Origin: Thermanaerothrix daxensis
GTDB taxonomy: Bacteria > Chloroflexota > Anaerolineae > Anaerolineales > Anaerolineaceae
DNA: 64,000 nucleotides
Assembly: GCF_001306145.1 (NCBI RefSeq)
Contig: NZ_LGKO01000002.1
Location: 1,054,001-1,118,000, forward strand
Direction of reading: 5' to 3'
The position numbers and the translations under genes are program-made. The notes under the pieces are model-generated. The model was given only the letters and a program-made list of their open reading frames with translations, had not been told where the DNA came from and searched no databases. The stretch's first letter is position 1; the number at the start of each line of letters is the position of its first letter. Positions 50 to 57,112 of this stretch are shown in pieces.

Positions 50-2281
50 TTATTCAATCAAGCGCCGGGCTTCCATGATATTGGGTAGGTTCTCAATTCG
101 GTTAAGCACCCGGCTGAGGTGCACAATGTCTTTAATCTCAATAATCGCCCGAATCGAAGCCAGGTTATGAGTGACACGCGTGCTGAGGTTAAGCACGTTG
201 GCTTTTTCGTCCCCGAAGATTTTGGAGATATCGCTCAATAAGCCTTGGCGATCGTAGGCTTTAATTTCAATGGTCACCGGGTAGGTACGCTGAGTTTCAC
301 CCCAGGTAACTTTTACGATGCGTTCTCTTTCTTGAATGCGTAAAAAGTTTGGGCAATCGCGACGGTGTATGGTTACTCCACGCCCACGCGTAATATAGCC
401 CATAATCTCGTCACCGGGCAGTGGCTTGCAACAACGGGCAAAATTGATTAACAGGCCTTTAACCCCTAATACCGAGATCTCGGCTCCCCCCTCTGTGGGT
501 TTGGGCTCACGGGCGGGCGCCTGGACCAGTAAGGGGTCCTTTTTGGGTGAGATATCGCTGATGCGGTTGATCACTCGCCCGAGGGGGATATCCCCACACC
601 CGATGGCTACATACAAATCGTCTGCACTGCGAAATTCAAAGGATTGGGCTAGTTTTTCAATATCCACATCCTTAATACCCAGGCGAGTGAGCTCCTTTTC
701 AAGCATGGCTCGGCCCTGGTGGACATTTTGCTCACGATCCTGGTGCTTGAACCAGGCACGAATCTTTGAAATGGCACGCTGAGTCTTCACCAGACCTAAC
801 GCGGGATTGAGCCAATCGCGGCTGGGCCCCCCTTGTTTAGCCGTCAAAATTTCAACCTGATCTCCCGTCTTTAGGGTGTAATCCAGCGAAACCAGTTTCC
901 CATTGACTTTAGCGCCCCGGCAGCGGTGACCGATTTCAGTATGGATGTAGTAGGCAAAGTCAATCGGTGTGGACCCGGCCGGCAGATCTACAATATCCCC
1001 CCGGGGAGTAAATACATACACCCGATCCTGAAAAATATCACTCTTTAGCCCATCTACGAACTCCTGGGCATCCATGACTTCCTGGCGCCACTCGCTGAGC
1101 GTTTTGCGCAGCCAGTTAATCCGCTGTTCATAAAGTTCATCGCGAGGACTGCGTTCCTTGTATCGCCAGTGAGCGGCAATACCATATTCCGCATTTTGGT
1201 GCATTTCGTAGGTGCGAATCTGAACTTCAAGCGGTTTGCCATCGTCATAAATGACTGCCGTGTGAAGGGATTGGTAGAAATTGTCTTTGGGAGCCGCGAT
1301 GTAATCATCGAATTCTTGAGGAATGGGACGCCAGTGTCCATGGATGACCCCGAGGGCAGCGTAACAAGTGGCCTTGTCTTCGACTAACAGGCGCACCCCC
1401 CGCAGGTCGCGCACCATGTCAAAGGTTTTTCCGCGATCTACCATCTTGCGGTAAATAGAATAGATATGCTTGGGACGCCCAGTGACCTCGGCTTTGATGC
1501 CATTTTCTTCCAGGACTTTCTTAAGGCGGGCAATAATCTGCTGGATTTCACGTTCACGGTCTTCGCGTCGCTCCGCCAGTTTTTCGGCAATCTCGCGGTA
1601 CTTTTCGGGATTGACGTAGCGGAATGCAAGGTCTTCCAATTCCCACTTAATTTGCCAGATTCCCAAGCGGTTAGCCAGTGGTGCAAAGATATCCAGGGTC
1701 TGTTGAGCGATGCGCCGCCGTTCTTCCTCTGGGAGATACCCCAGAGTGCGCATGTTATGCAACCGATCTGCTAGTTTAATCAACACAATGCGGATGTCAT
1801 CCCCCATCGCCAGGAAGACTTTCCGCAGGGTTTCATTTGTCAGATCGGCGCGTTTGGGGCGGGGATATGTACTAATTTCTGCAGGGTTCTCACCCTCACG
1901 GGTGGGCTTTTCATCTGCTGAGATGCGAGGCAGATTCGAGAGTTTGGTCACCCCGTCCACCAAATGAGCGACCTCGTCGCCAAACTCTCTCCGCAAGTCA
2001 TCCAGAGTGATGTGGGTATCCTCGACGGTATCATGGAGCAAGGCAGCCATTATCATGACTGGTGGCACTTGAAGTTCAGCCAGGATAGCAGCCACTTCTA
2101 CGCAGTGCGTGATGTACGGCTCGCCCGAAGCACGTTTTTGACCGCGATGGGCCTCTTCTGCAAAACGATAAGCCCGCATGATGAGTTCACGTTCCACTAA
2201 CGTGTAACTTTGCGGCAGGCGTTCCATCAGCGATTCAATTTTCATGCCCAACTCTTCTGTACCAATCGTCCGACCTATCAT
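50..2281 (-). CDS. rel: bifunctional (p)ppGpp synthetase/hydrolase (RelA/SpoT family)
   Basis: Makes and degrades the stringent-response alarmone (p)ppGpp. The 743 residues match the long RSH layout: an HD hydrolase domain (metal-binding HD at residues 83-84, second motif KLADRLHNMRTL near 170-180), a synthetase domain with DLRGVRLLV and the APKDNFYQSLHT stretch, a TGS domain beginning VYVFTPRGDIV, a Cys-rich segment (FARCCKPLPGD) and a C-terminal ACT domain. Because the HD pair is intact, this should be a two-way Rel rather than a synthetase-only RelA. Residues about 118-148 form an insertion before the second HD motif, rich in Glu, Pro and Arg, longer than I expect for the family. An ATG at 2242 is an alternative start. 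The 5' leader holds a CAGACC/GGTCTG inverted repeat at 2335-2351. Confidence 0.95.
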   Translation of the reverse strand: MIGRTIGTEELGMKIESLMERLPQSYTLVERELIMRAYRFAEEAHRGQKRASGEPYITHCVEVAAILAELQVPPVMIMAALLHDTVEDTHITLDDLRREFGDEVAHLVDGVTKLSNLPRISADEKPTREGENPAEISTYPRPKRADLTNETLRKVFLAMGDDIRIVLIKLADRLHNMRTLGYLPEEERRRIAQQTLDIFAPLANRLGIWQIKWELEDLAFRYVNPEKYREIAEKLAERREDREREIQQIIARLKKVLEENGIKAEVTGRPKHIYSIYRKMVDRGKTFDMVRDLRGVRLLVEDKATCYAALGVIHGHWRPIPQEFDDYIAAPKDNFYQSLHTAVIYDDGKPLEVQIRTYEMHQNAEYGIAAHWRYKERSPRDELYEQRINWLRKTLSEWRQEVMDAQEFVDGLKSDIFQDRVYVFTPRGDIVDLPAGSTPIDFAYYIHTEIGHRCRGAKVNGKLVSLDYTLKTGDQVEILTAKQGGPSRDWLNPALGLVKTQRAISKIRAWFKHQDREQNVHQGRAMLEKELTRLGIKDVDIEKLAQSFEFRSADDLYVAIGCGDIPLGRVINRISDISPKKDPLLVQAPAREPKPTEGGAEISVLGVKGLLINFARCCKPLPGDEIMGYITRGRGVTIHRRDCPNFLRIQERERIVKVTWGETQRTYPVTIEIKAYDRQGLLSDISKIFGDEKANVLNLSTRVTHNLASIRAIIEIKDIVHLSRVLNRIENLPNIMEARRLIE

Positions 2282-49328: not shown

Positions 49329-49691
49329 ATGGAGGAGATAACTATTCAGTATGTGATGGAAAACCTACACCGCGCCTTTTCTCCGGAAAACGCGCACGGA
49401 GTTCAGGCGGTGATTCAATTACATGTGACTGGCGACGAACCCGGCAATTGGGTAATCCGAATACGTGATGACCAATGCGAAGTGACCGAGGGTGAGGTGG
49501 AATATGCTGACCTCACGTTTACGGCTGATGCGCGTGACCTTTTGGAAATGTTGCAGGGTAAGTTAAACCCTTTGAGCGCCTACATGATGGGACGACTTGA
49601 TTTTAGAGGCAACAGTACACTGGCAATGAAACTACCCACTCTCTTTGCAAAGGGAATGGATTACTTAAAACAGCAGGGTGGGCAGGATTAA
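49329..49691 (+). CDS. SCP2 sterol-binding-domain protein
   Basis: A 120-residue single-domain SCP2-like protein, a fold with a hydrophobic tunnel that binds lipids or acyl-CoA. Signs are WVIRIRDDQCEVTEGEVEYA, DLTFTADARDLLEMLQGKLN and YMMGRLDFRGNSTLAMKLPT, the last being the usual GKLKxxGD-like segment. Bacterial free-standing members are poorly understood. GAGGG precedes ATG. It follows the methyltransferase in one operon, so the two may act on the same lipid. The stop overlaps the end of the convergent DUF59 gene by four bases. Confidence 0.85.
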   Translation: MEEITIQYVMENLHRAFSPENAHGVQAVIQLHVTGDEPGNWVIRIRDDQCEVTEGEVEYADLTFTADARDLLEMLQGKLNPLSAYMMGRLDFRGNSTLAMKLPTLFAKGMDYLKQQGGQD

Positions 49692-50041
49692 TACAACCCC
49701 CACCCGAGGTCAATGCCCTCTTCCATCATTGAAAAATCCCACATTTCCATGCCTAGTTCGATGAAGGCGGGAATCCCCAGGGCTTGTTCTGCTTTCTGGC
49801 GCGTCATCTCAATGAGTGCTGGCCCGTAAGGACAGAATGGAGTGGTTAGAATCATGCGAATCATCACCTGATCGGGCTCAATGCGCACATTGCGGATTAA
49901 GCCCAACTGGATGACATTTAACCCAATCTCGGGATCAATGATTTCGCGCAAAGCTTCGCGCAGCTTGTTGCAGGCTTCAGGGTGTGTGGCTTCAGCGTCC
50001 CATGCGGGGCGATTCGTTCCTGGTTGGGATGGATTTTCCAT
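49688..50041 (-). CDS. metal-sulfur cluster assembly protein (DUF59/MIP18, SufT-like)
   Basis: DUF59 proteins help mature iron-sulfur proteins. The core EALREIIDPEIGLNVIQLGL with IRNVRIEPDQVMIRMILTTP is the family signature, and the TTPFCPYGPALIEM loop carries the conserved Cys. The 117 residues start at ATG 50041, five codons inside the 3' end of sufR in another frame, behind GGAG; the overlap of 50 bases implies coupling. Its position next to sufR and the suf operon supports a role in cluster delivery. The sequence after DUF59 (ELGMEMWDFSMMEEG) is family-typical. Confidence 0.88.
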   Translation of the reverse strand: MENPSQPGTNRPAWDAEATHPEACNKLREALREIIDPEIGLNVIQLGLIRNVRIEPDQVMIRMILTTPFCPYGPALIEMTRQKAEQALGIPAFIELGMEMWDFSMMEEGIDLGWGLY

Positions 50042-50663
50042 GTTCTTTCTCCGTCTTGATAATATAGACGCAACGTTGATCCTTTTGGACAACGCAAGTG
50101 ACTTTGTCCGCTGGATGAGCCAACAATGCTGAGATGAGAGATTGGTCCACTGAGCAAACCTCAGGATATTGCTGGCTCAAATAGTAATAGGGGCAGTTGA
50201 TCTCGCGGATGCGGTAAGTGTCTCCCTCTTTTTCCCACTCCATCAAAAAACCTTCTTCAGCGAGCACTTTGCGCAGAAATTCCAGGCGCTCCTCGGTGCC
50301 CATTTTTGCAACAAGGTCGTGGTAGCCCGTAGCAATTTCCTCGCCAATTTGCGCAAAGATCTCGCTTATTGCCTTGGGAGATAGGGTGCCCTTAAGTTGA
50401 TCCAGCAAGCGCGTTGTTAGGCGCACATAACGGGTTGGAAAGCGTTCCAGACCTGCTTCGGTCAGGTAATAGACCAAGCGTGGACGTCCAACGCCGTGGC
50501 GCTCCTCCTCACTTGTAACTAAACCCTCGGCAAGTAAGGTATTCAAATGGTGGCGCACCGAAATGGGACTGATCCCTACCGCTTGGGCCAGTTCGTTTAT
50601 GGTGCAACGAGGGTTATTGAGCAAGGTTTGTAAAATGCGGTCACGCGTACTTTTGTTATTCAT
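49992..50663 (-). CDS. sufR: SufR-type iron-sulfur transcriptional repressor
   Basis: Regulator that represses SUF genes when its [4Fe-4S] or [2Fe-2S] cluster is present. The N-terminal winged helix (residues 5-75, STRDRILQTLLNNPRCTINE with ISPISVRHHLNTLLAEGLVT) is ArsR/DeoR-like and the C-terminal part contains four Cys: NCPYYYLSQQYPEVC, then DKVTCVVQKDQRC, matching the known SufR cysteine cluster in order and approximate spacing. Start at ATG 50663 behind AGGAT. Divergent from sufC with back-to-back promoters and a shared inverted repeat. The 223-residue length agrees with the family. Confidence 0.92.
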   Translation of the reverse strand: MNNKSTRDRILQTLLNNPRCTINELAQAVGISPISVRHHLNTLLAEGLVTSEEERHGVGRPRLVYYLTEAGLERFPTRYVRLTTRLLDQLKGTLSPKAISEIFAQIGEEIATGYHDLVAKMGTEERLEFLRKVLAEEGFLMEWEKEGDTYRIREINCPYYYLSQQYPEVCSVDQSLISALLAHPADKVTCVVQKDQRCVYIIKTEKEHGKSIPTRNESPRMGR

Positions 50664-50714
50664 CACTATCCTGGATTGGAACCGGTATTCCCCATAGATC
50701 TTTTAGTTTTTTTG

Positions 50715-50743
50715 AGTATAGCAAAGATTGGTTGAATTGTCAA
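50715..50743 (-). promoter_or_regulatory. promoter of sufR
   Basis: Minus-strand TTGACA (50743-50738), 17-base spacer, TATACT (50720-50715), about 50 bases before the sufR ATG. Confidence 0.75.
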
Positions 50744-50772
50744 TATATTAGAAATTTATCATAAATATTGAC
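50739..50772. promoter_or_regulatory. proposed SufR operator between sufR and sufC promoters
   Basis: GTCAATAT (50739-50746) is repeated inverted as ATATTGAC (50765-50772) with 18 bases between. Each arm overlaps the -35 box of one of the two divergent promoters, so one bound protein could shut both. The sequence differs from the cyanobacterial SufR site CAAC-N6-GTTG. Confidence 0.6.
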
Positions 50773-50796
50773 CAGATAGCGGAAACATGCTATAAT
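50768..50796 (+). promoter_or_regulatory. promoter of the suf operon
   Basis: TTGACC (50768-50773), 17-base spacer, TATAAT (50791-50796), about 50 bases before the sufC ATG at 50847. Confidence 0.8.
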
Positions 50797-50846
50797 GCAC
50801 AAAACTTGATCGGCAAGAGGCAAATTCTGAAGGAGGTAATGATTTC

Positions 50847-51629
50847 ATGACCGACGCTTTAGTGATCCGCAACCTGAGGGTGCGTGTGGAAGGGAAGGAG
50901 ATCCTTAAGGGGGTTAACCTGACTCTACCCAAGGGTGAGGTGCACGCAATTATGGGGCCAAACGGTACCGGTAAGTCCACGTTGGCCTACACCCTGATGG
51001 GACACCCGGGGTATGAGGTAGTAGAGGGTGAGGTCTGGTTCAAGGGGCAAAACATCTTAGAGTTAGAGCCCGATGAACGGGCACATTTGGGAATCTTTCT
51101 GGCTTTTCAGTACCCGGTGGCTATTCCGGGTGTTACGGTTGCCAATTTCCTGCGTACCGCCCTGAATGCCCAGCGGCGAGCGCGCGATCCTGAAGACAAG
51201 GGGATCCCGATTGCCGAATTTCGAAAGCTGCTCAAAGAAAAGATGGCTTTACTCAACATGGACCCCTCTTTTGGAGGGCGCTACTTGAATGATGGTTTTT
51301 CGGGCGGCGAAAAGAAACGGGCGGAGATCCTACAGATGGCTGTGTTGCAGCCGGAAATTGCCATTTTAGATGAAACCGATTCTGGGCTGGATATAGACGC
51401 TTTACGGATTGTTGCCCAAGGGGTGAACGCGCTTCGTGGCCCTAATCTAGGCGTGCTGGTTATTACCCACTACCAGCGTATTCTGAACTACATCCAACCC
51501 GACGTGGTTCACGTGATGATGGACGGGCGCATTGTGGAAACTGGCGGCCCGGATCTGGCACTCCACCTGGAAGAGAAGGGTTATTCCTGGGTGCGTGAAA
51601 AACTGGAAGGCGATTCAGTACTGGCGTAA
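50847..51629 (+). CDS. sufC: SUF system ABC-type ATPase SufC
   Basis: ATPase of the SufBCD scaffold that builds iron-sulfur clusters. Walker [17 protein letters not shown], the SufC-specific [18 protein letters not shown] signature and Walker [15 protein letters not shown] are present; the TDSGLD form is characteristic of SufC. The 260 residues match the family. AAGGAGG precedes ATG. It is first in the operon sufC-sufB-sufD, the order common outside Enterobacteria, and is followed by sufB after 37 bases. Confidence 0.96.
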
Positions 51630-51666
51630 TTCTCAATGAGTGGTAGATCCTAATGTGGAGGATGCG

Positions 51667-53082
51667 ATGGTTGCGAAACCTCAGCAAGAAGAATTCCTGG
51701 AGCAGTTAGGTGAATATCGGTATGGTTTTGCGGCTCCAGATGTCTCAGTTTTCAAGGCCCGCAAAGGGCTGGACGAAGAGGTTGTTAAACAGATTTCCTG
51801 GATGAAGGGTGAGCCCCAGTGGATGCTGGAATTCCGCTTACGTGCATTGGAGCATTTCCGTAAGCGACCGATGCCAACATGGGGGGCGGATCTTTCGGGA
51901 CTCAATCTGGATGATATTTACTACTATGTTAAGCCCACCGATAAGGAGGGGCGCTCGTGGGATGATATTCCGGATCCTATCAAGGAAACATTTGAGCGTC
52001 TGGGTATTCCGGAAGCGGAGCGCCGTTTCTTGGCCGGGCTGGGTGCGCAGTACGAATCTGAGATGGTCTATCACAGCATCCAAGAACACCTCGCCAGGCA
52101 GGGTGTCATCTTTGTAAGTATTGAGGATGGCCTGCGTCACTACCCGGATCTTTTCCGGGAGTACTTTGGTAAGGTTGTCCCCATTGAAGATAACAAGTTC
52201 GCAGCCCTCAATAGTGCCGTCTGGTCCGGAGGGTCGTTTGTCTACGTGCCGAAGGGTGTTAAGGTGGATCTGCCTTTACAGGCGTACTTCCGCCTGAATG
52301 TGGCCAATATTGGCCAGTTTGAGCGCACCCTGATTATTGCAGATGAGGGCGCTCAAGTGCACTATGTGGAGGGTTGTACAGCCCCGATTTACTCCACGGA
52401 TTCCTTCCATAGTGGTGTCATCGAGATTATTGTGAAGAAAGGGGCACGGGTGCGGTACACCACGATTCAAAACTGGTCCACCAATGTCTACAACCTGGTG
52501 ACCCAGCGTGCTATCGTCGAGGAAGGTGGCACCATGGAATGGGTGGACTGCAACCTGGGATCTAAAATTACCATGAAATATCCCTCCTGCTACCTGATGG
52601 GTCCTGGGGCGCATGGGGAAATTCTTTCAATGGCGTTTGCGGGTCCTGGTCAGTGGCAGGATGCTGGAGGCAAAGTGATCCACTTTGCACCGCATACCAG
52701 CAGCAAAATCACCTCTAAATCCATCAGTAAAGGGGGTGGGCGGGCTTCGTACCGCGGCTTGCTGAAGGTACACAAAGGGGCTTACGATTCCCGCTCCAAT
52801 GTGGTGTGTGATGCTTTGCTGCTGGATCCCAAATCTCGCTCAGATACATATCCTTACATCGAAATTGACGAGGAAGACGTGACCATTGGCCATGAGGCTT
52901 CAGTCTCGAAGGTGGGTGAGGAGCAACTCTTTTACCTCATGAGTCGCGGCTTGAGCGAGGAAGAGGCGACCACAATGGTGGTATCGGGCTTCATTGAACC
53001 CTTGGTCAAGGAATTGCCAATGGAGTATGCTGTTGAGATGAATCGACTCATCCAATTACAGATGGAAGGCTCGATTGGGTAA
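51667..53082 (+). CDS. sufB: iron-sulfur scaffold protein SufB
   Basis: Core subunit of the SufBCD complex, on which clusters are assembled. The 471 residues show the right-handed beta-helix core ([59 protein letters not shown]) and conserved Cys and Glu/His positions, ending with [20 protein letters not shown]. Start at ATG 51667, five bases behind GGAGG, rather than the GTG at 51640. It is followed by sufD, 38 bases on. Confidence 0.96.
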
Positions 53083-53120
53083 GGACATCGAGGACTTGAA
53101 TTGAAGAGGATGCAAAGGCT

Positions 53121-54485
53121 ATGACGAAAGAAACTCCCGAGATTGTTGTACGTGGGCGACGGCGCGAGGCTCAAGCACTGGCAAAGGCCTTTGCTTTTCA
53201 ACGCGCCATGGTGCGAACGGCGGGTTTAAGCCCGGGTATTCAGGCTTTTCGCGATCAGGCATGGCGCCTTTTTGAAAGTCTGCCTATGCCTGATCCCAAA
53301 GACGAGGCATGGCGACGCACCGATATCAGCGGCCTTCAGGCTGAAACTTTCCGCTTGCCCCAACCTGACGCTTATTTAGATCTGGCCCCTCTTGATGAGA
53401 GCCTGCTTAGTCCTCTGGCGGGAGAAGCCCATGCCGGTCAGGTGGTTTTACTCCCTGGTGGAGTCCGCACCAGTCTGAACGAATCCTTGCAGGCGCAAGG
53501 TGTGGTATTTACGGATCTACTAAGTGCAGAGCGCGACCATGCCGACTTACTGGAAGCGCGTTTGGGAAAAATTGTGCGTCCCGAGGAAGGTAAATTTGCG
53601 GCAATGGCGGCTGCCCTGGCGCATACGGGGGTATTCCTCTACGTCCCGCGCGGTGTAGTCATTGAGCAACCGCTCCACAGCCTGCTGTGGGGACCTGGAG
53701 TGGGATTGGCTCATATCTCCCACCTGGTGATCTGGGTGGAGGACGAAGCCTCGGTTACCTACGTGCATGAGTATGCCTCTCCAACTGAGGAGGGTGGGCA
53801 AACTCTGCATGTGGGTTTAGTAGAGGTGTACGTCGGAGAGGGGGCTAACCTCCGATTTGTTGAACTTCAATCCTGGGGTGAACATGTTTGGAATTTCACT
53901 CACGAGCGGGTACGTGTGGCGCGTCAGGGTAATGTGGACTGGGTTTTTGGCGCCATGGGCGGGCATGTGACGAAAAATTTTGCCGAACTGGACTTAGTGG
54001 GCGAGGGAAGTACCGGCCGCATGTCGGGTTTCTACTTTACGGATGGAGATCAACACCTTGACTACGACTCGCAGCAGAATCACCTGGCACCTCATACGAC
54101 CAGTGATTTGCTCTTCAAAGGCGCATTACTTGATCGTAGTCGGGTGGTCTGGCAGGGGATGATCTACGTAGCACCGGGAGCGTTTAAGACAGATGGCTAT
54201 CAGGCTAATCGTAACCTGGTCCTTAGTCGCCAGGCGCGGGCCGATTCTATTCCCGGTCTGGAAATCCTGGCCGATGATGTGCGCTGTACCCATGGGGCTA
54301 CGGTGGGGAAGATTGATCCGGAGCAAATCTTCTACTTGCGCGCCCGTGGTATCCCTGAGGTAGAAGCCAAACGGTTGATTGTTGAGGGATTCTTTGATCC
54401 TATCATGCAGCGGATTCCGTTTGAGGGAGTACGCGCGCGCTTTCAAGAGGCCATTCAGCGTAAGATGTTGAACTTTAAAGCATGA
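53121..54485 (+). CDS. sufD: iron-sulfur assembly protein SufD
   Basis: Partner of SufB in the SufBCD complex, needed for iron entry. The 454 residues have an N-terminal helical region (FRDQAWRLFESLPMPDPKDE with WRRTDIS) and the SufBD beta-helix (GVFLYVPRGVVIEQPLHSLL; FTHERVRVARQGNVDWVFGA), ending with the family motif ARGIPEVEAKRLIVEGFFDP. It keeps the His region of the interface (HLAPHTTSDLLFKGALLDRS). The start ATG 53121 has only a weak ribosome binding site. It is followed by a 213-base gap before the next gene. Confidence 0.95.
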   Translation: MTKETPEIVVRGRRREAQALAKAFAFQRAMVRTAGLSPGIQAFRDQAWRLFESLPMPDPKDEAWRRTDISGLQAETFRLPQPDAYLDLAPLDESLLSPLAGEAHAGQVVLLPGGVRTSLNESLQAQGVVFTDLLSAERDHADLLEARLGKIVRPEEGKFAAMAAALAHTGVFLYVPRGVVIEQPLHSLLWGPGVGLAHISHLVIWVEDEASVTYVHEYASPTEEGGQTLHVGLVEVYVGEGANLRFVELQSWGEHVWNFTHERVRVARQGNVDWVFGAMGGHVTKNFAELDLVGEGSTGRMSGFYFTDGDQHLDYDSQQNHLAPHTTSDLLFKGALLDRSRVVWQGMIYVAPGAFKTDGYQANRNLVLSRQARADSIPGLEILADDVRCTHGATVGKIDPEQIFYLRARGIPEVEAKRLIVEGFFDPIMQRIPFEGVRARFQEAIQRKMLNFKA

Positions 54486-54517
54486 GTAGTGATGGGCTAA
54501 GCCGCTTAGACAAGCAC

Positions 54518-54578
54518 TTCTCCTGGTCGCTCTGGTGGCTCAGGTGTGTCAGTAAGAGCTAGAGAGCGACCAGGAGAA
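54518..54578. repeat. long inverted repeat between sufD and the next gene
   Basis: TTCTCCTGGTCGCTCT (54518-54533) returns as its exact inverse at 54563-54578 with 29 bases between. A 13-base palindrome CTAAGCCGCTTAG lies just before it and an imperfect repeat GCACGCTCA/TGAGTGTGC near 54624-54649. No T-run follows; the rest of the 213-base gap shows nothing else. Confidence 0.7.
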
Positions 54579-54698
54579 CTCGAAAGAGCCATGAGTAAGA
54601 TCAGCCTAACCAGTAATAAAGTGTGCACGCTCAAATGATTGTGAGTGTGCTAAAATTAAATGATGCTTATTAAGAAAATTCACTCATAGGAGATGGAT

Positions 54699-55004
54699 AT
54701 GGCAGGTGTACCTTATATGCGTCCACCCGAGCCGGAACATGGTTTTGACGTTGGCGATGTCGTCGAAGTCTATTGCGATCACGAAAAAAACGGCCAACGA
54801 GTGCGTGGCTGGGTGAAAGGGATCGTGGTACAGGTGGATTCTAAAATGGTGGCGGTGCAATTCCGCACCAATGTCTATCTGACGGATGGCTGGATGGTGC
54901 CTGATCATATTCTTTGGTTCCCGGTTAACTCGCCGCACATCCGTGTACCGCAAAAGCGCTCCTCGCGGACGGAGGCCGTGGGCTCCAAAGCCTCTCAACT
55001 TTAG
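54699..55004 (+). CDS. uncharacterised small protein within the suf operon
   Basis: Not recognised. The 101 residues are mostly beta, with the pattern of a small barrel: DVGDVVEVYCDHEKNGQRVR, GWVKGIVVQVDSKMVAVQFR and TDGWMVPDHILWFPVNSPHI, similar in style to SH3-like or Tudor-like barrels that bind proteins or nucleic acids. One Cys only, so no cluster site. The tail is basic and disordered. ATG 54699 is six bases behind AGGAG. It lies between sufD and sufS, 27 bases before sufS, so it is probably made with them. Confidence 0.75.
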   Translation: MAGVPYMRPPEPEHGFDVGDVVEVYCDHEKNGQRVRGWVKGIVVQVDSKMVAVQFRTNVYLTDGWMVPDHILWFPVNSPHIRVPQKRSSRTEAVGSKASQL

Positions 55005-55031
55005 GGTTTACGAGCGGAGAATTTTATTCGA

Positions 55032-56276
55032 ATGGCTGCCGAAACCTATAAGATTTTTGATATCACAAAAATACGAGCGGATTTTCCGATTTTGCAGCGC
55101 GAAATCCGCGCTGGTGTGAAATTGGTCTATCTGGACTCCACGGCCACGGCCCAAAAGCCGTTGGCCGTGATCGAGGCCATGGATCGTTATTATCGGTGGT
55201 CCAATGCTAATATTCACCGCGGAGTTCATACTCTGGGGGAGGAGGCTACAACGTTGTATGAGGCAGCCAGACAGCGCGTGGCCAAATTTATCCACGCTTG
55301 CAAAGCACAGGAGATTGTGTTTACCCGCAATACGACCGAAGCTATCAATTTGGTGGCCTACTCCTGGGGACGTAGTCAGTTAAAGGCGGGGGACCTCATT
55401 ATTCTCACTGAAATGGAACATCATTCCAACCTGGTTCCCTGGCAGATTTTGGCCGCTGAGAAGGGTTTGCGTCTGGAATTTGTTCCCGTAACCGGAGATG
55501 GCTACCTGGATTTAGAAGTATATGACCGTTTGTTAGAACAACATCCTCGCCTGGTTGCTTTTACCCATATGTCAAATGTGCTGGGTACGATTAACCCAGT
55601 GCGTGAAATGACAGAGAAAGCCCATCGGGCGGGCGCACTGGTGATGGTGGACGGCGCTCAGTCGGTGCCACATCTACATGTGGACGTCCAGGCTTTGGGG
55701 GTGGATTTCTTGGCCTTTTCGGCGCATAAAATGCTTGGGCCGACCGGGATTGGGGTGCTTTATGCTCGCGAGACGCTCCTGGAGCAGATGCCACCTTTTC
55801 TGGGGGGTGGCGATATGATCAAAAGGGTTGAACTCAGGACTTTTACTCCTAATGAGATCCCCCATAAGTTCGAAGCTGGCACCCCCGCGATTGCTGAGGC
55901 GGTAGGCCTGGAGGCTGCAATTGCTTATCTGGAAAGCGTGGGAATGGAGGCCATTGAAGCACATGAGCGTGGGCTTATTGCCTACGCCCTGGAACGCCTG
56001 GCTGAGGTGCCGGGTTTGAAGGTTTATGGGCCTGCTGCTAACCATCGAGGTGGGGTCGCTTCATTCGTTATGGAAGGTGTTCACCCCCATGATGTGGCTC
56101 AAATTTTGGATCGTGAAGGGATTGCGGTTCGGGCTGGTCACCATTGCGCCATGCCACTCCATCAAAAACTAGGCGCAGTGGCCACAACGCGCGCGTCGTT
56201 TTATCTTTATAATACCTATGAAGAGGTAGACCGTTTAATCGAAGCCTTGCATAAAGTGCGGGCTATTTTTGGATGA
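55032..56276 (+). CDS. sufS: cysteine desulfurase SufS
   Basis: PLP enzyme taking sulfur from cysteine for iron-sulfur clusters. The 414 residues have the group II desulfurase features: YLDSTATAQKPLAVIEAMD, NIHRGVHTLGEEAT, the PLP Lys in FLAFSAHKMLGPTGIG and the active-site Cys in RAGHHCAMPLHQKLGA on a short loop, as in SufS rather than IscS. Its usual partner SufU follows 18 bases downstream. The ribosome binding site before ATG 55032 is weak. Confidence 0.96.
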   Translation: MAAETYKIFDITKIRADFPILQREIRAGVKLVYLDSTATAQKPLAVIEAMDRYYRWSNANIHRGVHTLGEEATTLYEAARQRVAKFIHACKAQEIVFTRNTTEAINLVAYSWGRSQLKAGDLIILTEMEHHSNLVPWQILAAEKGLRLEFVPVTGDGYLDLEVYDRLLEQHPRLVAFTHMSNVLGTINPVREMTEKAHRAGALVMVDGAQSVPHLHVDVQALGVDFLAFSAHKMLGPTGIGVLYARETLLEQMPPFLGGGDMIKRVELRTFTPNEIPHKFEAGTPAIAEAVGLEAAIAYLESVGMEAIEAHERGLIAYALERLAEVPGLKVYGPAANHRGGVASFVMEGVHPHDVAQILDREGIAVRAGHHCAMPLHQKLGAVATTRASFYLYNTYEEVDRLIEALHKVRAIFG

Positions 56277-56294
56277 GGAGGGCTTTCTGAGCCC

Positions 56295-56702
56295 ATGGAT
56301 GACCTTTATCGTGAATTGATTATCGAACGGTATAAGATGCCCCATCATCGGGGCATTTTGGAGCCCCACGATATTTCATTCGAGGATGAAAACCCCCTAT
56401 GCGGCGATCGCATTCGTATTGATTTGCGCGTGGCCGAAGATGGGACGATTACCGAGGCAGCATTTAGTGGGCATGGGTGTGCTATTTCACAGGCTGCTGC
56501 GGATTTGCTGATCGAGTCAATCCTCGGTAAGCCCATTGAGGAGGTCAAGGCGCTTGGGCGTCAAGATATTCTGGATCTGCTGGGGTTCGAAGAACTGGGG
56601 CCGGTACGGATTAAGTGTGCGCTGCTACCACTTAAAGTTTTGAAGGCGGGTGTTTATGGACTGAGGCATCATGACTCGGAAATCCTCAGTGAGGAGTCGT
56701 AA
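56295..56702 (+). CDS. sufU: sulfur relay protein SufU
   Basis: Zinc-binding carrier that accepts persulfide sulfur from SufS. The 135 residues show the SufU start LYRELIIERYKMPHHRGILE, the Asp/Cys pair NPLCGDRIRIDLRV, SGHGCAISQAAADLLIES and the third Cys in VRIKCALLPLKVL. The insertion between the second and third Cys separates it from IscU. It follows sufS in one operon and is followed by a Rieske protein after nine bases. Confidence 0.95.
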   Translation: MDDLYRELIIERYKMPHHRGILEPHDISFEDENPLCGDRIRIDLRVAEDGTITEAAFSGHGCAISQAAADLLIESILGKPIEEVKALGRQDILDLLGFEELGPVRIKCALLPLKVLKAGVYGLRHHDSEILSEES

Positions 56703-56710
56703 ACAAAGAT

Positions 56711-57037
56711 ATGGCAGAGGACTATGTGTTTTTGAAAATAGCCACCCTGGATGAGATCCCTGTTGGGGAGCGGCTCTTCCTGGAAATTAACAATGAACCT
56801 ATTGTGTTACTCAATTTGGGAGGAACGCTCTTTGCTGTTGGGGATGTGTGTACCCATGATGAGGGTCCTCTCGGGGATGGAGAAATTGATGGGTATCAGA
56901 TTGTGTGTCCCCGTCATGGAGCGCGCTTTGATGTTCGAACCGGCAAAGCCCTTACCTTGCCGGCAGTGGTAGATATTCCGGTTTATCCTATTCGGATTGA
57001 GGGGAACGAAGTTTATATTGGGATAAAGCGGGCCTGA
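56711..57037 (+). CDS. Rieske-type [2Fe-2S] ferredoxin
   Basis: Small electron-transfer protein of 108 residues. The cluster motifs are CTHDEGPLGDG (Cys and His) and CPRHGARFDVRTG (Cys and His), the soluble Rieske ferredoxin type seen in dioxygenase systems and next to suf genes in many bacteria. No membrane helix, so it is cytoplasmic. It may give electrons to SUF assembly or only be a first customer for new clusters; the sequence does not tell. Last gene of the suf operon, followed by a strong terminator. Confidence 0.92.
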   Translation: MAEDYVFLKIATLDEIPVGERLFLEINNEPIVLLNLGGTLFAVGDVCTHDEGPLGDGEIDGYQIVCPRHGARFDVRTGKALTLPAVVDIPVYPIRIEGNEVYIGIKRA

Positions 57038-57054
57038 GGGTGTTTTGGAGGAAG

Positions 57055-57090
57055 AAGAGCGACTGTCTTAAAGGGCAGTCGCTCTTTCAT
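57055..57090. terminator. terminator at the end of the suf operon
   Basis: Thirteen-base-pair stem AAGAGCGACTGTC/GGCAGTCGCTCTT with one G-T pair and a six-base loop, followed by T-rich sequence (TTTCATTTTT). It can also stop the convergent PIG-L transcript. Confidence 0.85.
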
Positions 57091-57112
57091 TTTTAGGTAG
57101 TTGAGTTTCGGG

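Follow-up and report, generated by a model that had tools for sequence, protein, structure and literature searches.

The suf locus and its regulator gene

The window, i.e. the whole 64,000-nucleotide stretch of Thermanaerothrix daxensis DNA analysed here, carries a suf operon on its plus strand and, divergent from it, a gene for a SufR-type regulator. The genes at the locus are as follows.

49688..50092, minus strand: sufT-like gene (FeS_assembly_P / DUF59), downstream of sufR and overlapping it (PF01883, E=2.6e-15)
49992..50666, minus strand: sufR-type regulator gene, 224 aa, winged HTH and C158-X12-C171-X19-C191-X7-C199 (TIGR02702, HTH, cysteine conservation)
50830..50836, plus strand: probable ribosome-binding site of sufC, AAGGAGG (sequence)
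50847..51629, plus strand: sufC (TIGR01978, 362.9 bits)
51640..53082, plus strand: sufB (TIGR01980, 728.4 bits)
53121..54485, plus strand: sufD (TIGR01981, 274 bits)
54693-55004, plus strand: 103-aa ORF inside the suf operon, between sufD and sufS (no Pfam or NCBIfam match)
55032..56276, plus strand: sufS (TIGR01979, 605 bits)
56295..56702, plus strand: sufU (TIGR01994, 101.8 bits)

The gene order on the plus strand is thus sufC, sufB, sufD, the 103-aa ORF, sufS, sufU and a Rieske ferredoxin gene. The regulator gene is linked to this operon through the divergent sufC and has the sufT-like gene as its other neighbour, which adjoins sufR in nearly all relatives. Against TIGR02702 (SufR_cyano) the regulator scores 95.8 bits (E=2.8e-27), under the curated cut-off of 178.8; as just 1 of 14 control genomes passes that cut-off, the model seems to be specific to cyanobacteria. 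The protein is called a SufR-type regulator here, and not a TIGR02702 equivalog. Residues 6-52 form an ArsR/DeoR-like winged HTH (PF13412, PF01022 and others above cut-off). C158, C171 and C199 are 99-100% conserved in 142 Anaerolineae orthologues and present in all eight members (8/8) of another Chloroflexota group, probably Chloroflexia, from which C191, an Anaerolineae addition, is absent. No solved SufR structure was found among the PDB sequence matches, which comprised generic ArsR-like domains only.

Several related observations were made along the way. The T. daxensis genome encodes a second SufR-like protein of 28% identity outside the suf locus (L063, G000:C3:230197-230799). A group of SufR-like paralogues (L056-L060, L062; 28-32% identity, same three-cysteine pattern) occurs in several SufR-bearing genomes, mostly with TTTGTCAAA upstream in place of the suf operator. 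In G058 (L061, L260, around 465-492) the sole relative of SufR shows 27% identity and is encoded close to sufS, and a variant dyad, AATAAAAAAGAAATTCATCTTATTTATT, precedes sufC. Finally, sufB has an in-frame insert of ~1.1 kb, giving a frame of ~840-885 aa, in G308 (L262/L267), G092 (L263/L266) and G038 (L264/L265); the insert looks like an intein.

Two back-to-back promoters joined by an inverted repeat

A promoter scan of the 180-bp sufR/sufC gap recovered exactly the two diverging promoters that the earlier note had named, with 17-bp spacers. Both match the consensus at 11 of 12 positions, each with a TG preceding the -10 element.

50743-50715, minus strand: sufR promoter, TTGACA-17-TATACT (promoter scan)
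50738..50743, minus strand: sufR -35, TTGACA (promoter scan; TTGAC counts in relatives)
50715..50720, minus strand: sufR -10, TATACT, extended (TGC) (promoter scan; relatives)
50768-50796, plus strand: sufC promoter, TTGACC-17-TATAAT (promoter scan)
50768..50773, plus strand: sufC -35, TTGACC (promoter scan; TTGAC counts in relatives)
50791..50796, plus strand: sufC -10, TATAAT, extended (TGC) (promoter scan)

Between the two -10 elements lies the inverted repeat GTCAATAT-N18-ATATTGAC, its sequence and coordinates being exactly as first reported. The 34 bp at 50739-50772 read GTCAATATATTAGAAATTTATCATAAATATTGAC, with perfect 8-bp arms at 50739-50746 and 50765-50772 about the 18-bp spacer. A search of the 3.0-Mb genome for the exact 34-bp pattern gives this one occurrence, and allowing up to three mismatches adds one further place, which is not above the reversed-pattern control. 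With spacers of 4-30 allowed, the window contains 122 perfect 8-bp inverted repeats, and an 8-bp inverted repeat arises in 9% of base-shuffled versions of the AT-rich sufR/sufC gap. The bare inverted repeat is weak evidence. Since an 8-bp repeat is not rare, and since facing TTGAC boxes make part of it by themselves, conservation is the deciding test.

A 28-bp core conserved among Anaerolineae

Aligned across relatives, the site resolves into the following parts (34-mer positions are counted along the 34-bp repeat; none is assigned to a strand).

50742..50769: predicted operator core, 28 bp, AATATATTAGAAATTTATCATAAATATT, found in all three site classes described below, aligned without gaps and unique in the T. 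daxensis genome
50742..50746: outer arm AATAT, two bases of which are common with the sufR -35 (34-mer positions 4-8)
50751..50753: inner arm GAA, consensus GAT (position 13 G at 0.82-0.86, position 14 A at 0.98-1.00)
50758..50760: inner arm ATC, which pairs with GAT in the dyad (positions 20-21 at 0.94-1.00)
50765..50769: outer arm ATATT, two bases of which are common with the sufC -35 (34-mer positions 27-31)

We compared 61 genomes, T. daxensis and its relatives, calling SufR at E <= 3e-42. A close SufR is present in 54 of the 61, mostly divergent from sufC, and sufC is divergent from sufR in 92 of 122 non-redundant sufR loci (named loci included). The sample consists mostly of MAGs, and its genomes are related to each other; among named genomes the closest is a Thermanaerothrix MAG, with a SufR that is 90% identical. 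The earlier note had looked to other Anaerolineae for confirmation, and the repeat region indeed proves conserved there: a profile built from the sites themselves gives more than 10 bits in 128 of 136 sufR/sufC promoter regions, against none of 1360 dinucleotide shuffles reaching 10. A second profile was trained on the T. daxensis family alone. With it, scores above 12 bits were obtained for 15 of 21 held-out regions belonging to other families in the order and for 75 of 76 further loci from genome contigs, and on 776 shuffles its 99th percentile is 5.4, with one maximum of 13.7. Two of the six misses (L014_C and L022_C) are sufC regions of long gaps in which the site sits at the sufR end, and the core is degraded in more distant families (L039, L041, L047, L052). 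It is this conservation across relatives that gives the repeat its significance.

The core follows SufR

In 12 genomes sufC is separated from sufR by kilobases or is found on a different contig. The distant sufC has its own full core in nine of them (G011, G012, G016, G022, G023, G032, G044, G057, G060), a partial one in G006, a degenerate one in G026 and none in G014, although a SufR is encoded there. Eight genomes possess sufC and sufB and no SufR (G018, G045, G050, G092, G143, G206, G308, G349). They are partly related and represent ~5 independent losses, and none of the eight has a core upstream of sufC (best score 2.4).

These genomes bear on the possibility that the core is bound by a regulator other than SufR, either one of the Rrf2/IscR type or a Fur/PerR protein, which recognizes words similar to GATAATNATTATC. 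The GATAATTATC of the core does resemble half a Fur box, and the T. daxensis genome has four Fur-family and two strong Rrf2 members. However, Fur or Rrf2-domain proteins also occur in several of the SufR-less genomes, and G018 and G143, which have both, lack the core upstream of sufC. Moreover, the core centre is free, unlike that of a 7-1-7 Fur box, and does not fit a GATAATNATTATC-type dyad; the core adjoins sufR wherever sufR moves, and occurs a single time in the T. daxensis genome. As the core is absent from SufR-less genomes and present near sufR and sufC, a Fur box or an Rrf2/IscR site is improbable, and we reject both on this pattern of presence and absence.

A core profile search of the whole T. 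daxensis genome gave one match, and matches in relatives fall mainly at sufR and sufC promoters. We therefore reject a wider SufR regulon, with the proviso that the scan scored best candidates only, so that weak sites may escape it, and that scattered weak matches had E values of 0.1-1. In SufR-less G045 an Rrf2-type gene occupies the usual place of sufR, between a divergent sufT-like gene and sufC (L269, G045:C1:9800-12300, 714-1178, plus strand). The SufR operator is absent from this suf locus, in an apparent exchange of SufR for an Rrf2 regulator.

Rearranged loci part operator letters from promoter letters

The sites fall into three classes, shared, sufR-only and sufC-only, according to the genes that they face. 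A TTGAC accompanied by a good -10 points toward sufC in 68 of the 74 shared sites and 10 of the 11 sufC-only ones, and a TTGAC points that way in 2 of 36 sufR-only sites; toward sufR, TTGAC stands in 32 of the 36 sufR-only sites and in none of the 11 sufC-only sites. TTGAC and -10 elements are thus almost confined to the side bearing a gene. Of the 71 shared sites whose -10 matches at no fewer than 4/6 positions, 66 have a 17-bp spacer in the sufC promoter. Shared sites keep both the left GTC and the right GAC. The sufR-only sites (35 distinct) retain the core and GTC, with positions 32-34 down to 0.46/0.46/0.34; the 11 sufC-only sites retain the core and GAC, and their positions 1-3 no longer read GTC. 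In all three classes, positions 4-6 and 29-30 are conserved at 97-100%, and position 22 C is weaker, at 0.47-0.74 in shared and sufR-only sites. These natural rearrangements separate the letters of the operator from those of the promoters without an experiment.

They also dispose of the idea that the repeat is a mere by-product of two strong facing -35 boxes and no operator at all. TTGAC boxes facing each other at such a distance do yield GTCAA...TTGAC automatically, and the end letters GTC/GAC of the repeat as first described are indeed -35 letters; however, the core between the boxes is conserved, inner GAT/ATC arms included, it persists in full in distinct single-promoter sites where the opposite TTGAC is gone, which rules the idea out, and SufR-less genomes keep the sufC promoter yet lack the core, so we give this reading next to no credence.

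Because GTC and GAC fade where the promoter of that side is absent and positions 4-31 stay, the core spans the 28 bp from 50742 to 50769. A gapless alignment of 64 distinct cores gives the family consensus AATAT-N4-GATAW|WTATC-N4-ATATT, in which letters of both the outer and the inner arms are almost invariant and the centre varies among sites (AAATTT, AAAAAT, TTTTTA, TAATTA). The middle of the T. daxensis copy reads GAAATTTATC, so that its inner dyad is easily missed. The site definition of the earlier note thus needs revision: its arms contain the AATAT/ATATT outer arms, its GTC/GAC ends belong to the -35 boxes, and the GAT/ATC inner arms have to be added. Judged by this alignment, the symmetrical 28-bp core, not the 34-bp repeat, is the predicted operator proper.

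One probable SufR site for two promoters

The centres of the two -35 boxes are 30 bp apart, and the core covers the inner end of each. By this geometry, one bound SufR unit would block both promoters. We consider it very probable, from sequence comparison, that the dyad at 50742-50769 is the SufR operator and that holo-SufR bound there blocks both -35 boxes, repressing sufR-sufT and sufCBD(x)SU. In the proposed mechanism, cluster-loaded SufR would bind the 28-bp core and keep RNA polymerase from both -35 boxes by steric occlusion, so that a single site would serve autorepression of sufR-sufT as well as repression of sufCBD(x)SU. When iron shortage or oxygen or redox stress removes the cluster, SufR would leave the core, and both operons would be expressed until clusters are restored. 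Repression by holo-SufR and release upon cluster loss are established in cyanobacteria and, by analogy, should hold here. The earlier note had likewise suggested that SufR controls itself and the suf operon from this site. The shared site in that model stands, being conserved and tracking SufR; its binding and repression we infer.

Alternatively, SufR bound at this operator could activate one of the two promoters, or control it in both senses, as the sign of control is something we infer. Fe-S regulators such as IscR can both activate and repress. IscR induces sufABCDSE (PMC6034842). We nevertheless regard activation as very unlikely here, because the core overlaps both -35 boxes, which suits occlusion, because the promoters, which come close to consensus and have extended -10 elements, should have little need for an activator, and because the SufR proteins characterised so far are repressors (PMC13421787, PMC6034842, PMC8593673).

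With repression by SufR as the preferred reading, Chloroflexota would be the third phylum beside cyanobacteria and actinobacteria, with an operator of its own kept in about a hundred genomes. With its defined length of 28 bp, the core can also serve as a target in binding tests and in annotating Fe-S control in the largely uncultured Anaerolineae.

Comparison with known SufR systems

The regulator type is already known, and the operator variant is new; an earlier description of a Chloroflexota SufR was not found in the open-access literature, beyond which reports may exist. The cyanobacterial SufR operator word is CAAC-N6-GTTG (PMC13421787, PMC8593673). The same word is given for Streptomyces avermitilis in PMC11995493, and GAAC-N6-GTTG is the word of Corynebacterium glutamicum (PMC11995493). 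As the earlier note had said, the site differs from CAAC-N6-GTTG: the word is absent from 49600-57100 and from the further upstream regions that were examined. With this word absent, the pairing of the core with SufR rests on co-occurrence.

The locus resembles that of Synechocystis, SufR/sufBCDS, in its divergent sufR and suf operon, its winged-HTH protein with C-terminal cluster cysteines, its predicted combination of autoregulation and operon control, and its inner half-sites about a 6-bp centre. In contrast to the published cyanobacterial word, the Anaerolineae operator has wholly other letters, GAT/ATC inside and AATAT/ATATT outside over 28 bp, and one site is common to both promoters, whereas the cyanobacterium has separate high- and low-affinity sites, according to PMC6034842. 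The regulator also differs in falling under the cyanobacterial equivalog cut-off and in its extra Cys191. With actinobacterial SufR it shares suf gene control and three cysteines whose X12/X27 spacing is that of C203/C216/C244, the cluster cysteines of Mycobacterium tuberculosis SufR (Rv1460) (PMC6034842); there, however, the suf operon begins with sufR, and a CAAC-type operator overlaps the -10 (PMC6034842, PMC11995493).

The other Chloroflexota group (L173, L174, L177, L180, L186, L188, L190, L192) has co-directional sufR and sufC and, upstream of sufR, GTCAATAAA-N3-GG-N6-CC-N2-GTTTATT or a sequence close to it. The same 28-bp frame thus lies beside the sufR -35, but with outer AATAAA/TTTATT and inner GG-N6-CC, in a co-directional operon whose regulator has no Cys191. 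Inner half-sites flank 6 bp in Anaerolineae, in this group and in the CAAC-N6-GTTG type alike. In the recognition helix, Anaerolineae have VRHHL and the other group has mostly [VA]R[ED]HL (VREHL-type), and we conjecture that this helix residue sets the inner operator letters. Tentatively, and with less than even confidence, we suggest that Chloroflexota SufR proteins may share a long 28-bp four-block operator, the inner letters of which changed together with the recognition helix, GAT/ATC with VRHHL and GG/CC with VREHL. Either two dimers or extended contacts of the wing might fill such an operator. If the suggestion is true, SufR specificity could be read from natural pairs of regulator and operator on one conserved geometry. 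Two distant Chloroflexota loci with co-directional sufR-sufC-sufB (L183, L193) show no operator of the AATAT or AATAAA kind upstream of sufR, and one of them carries TGCAGGATTGCA, possibly a third operator type.
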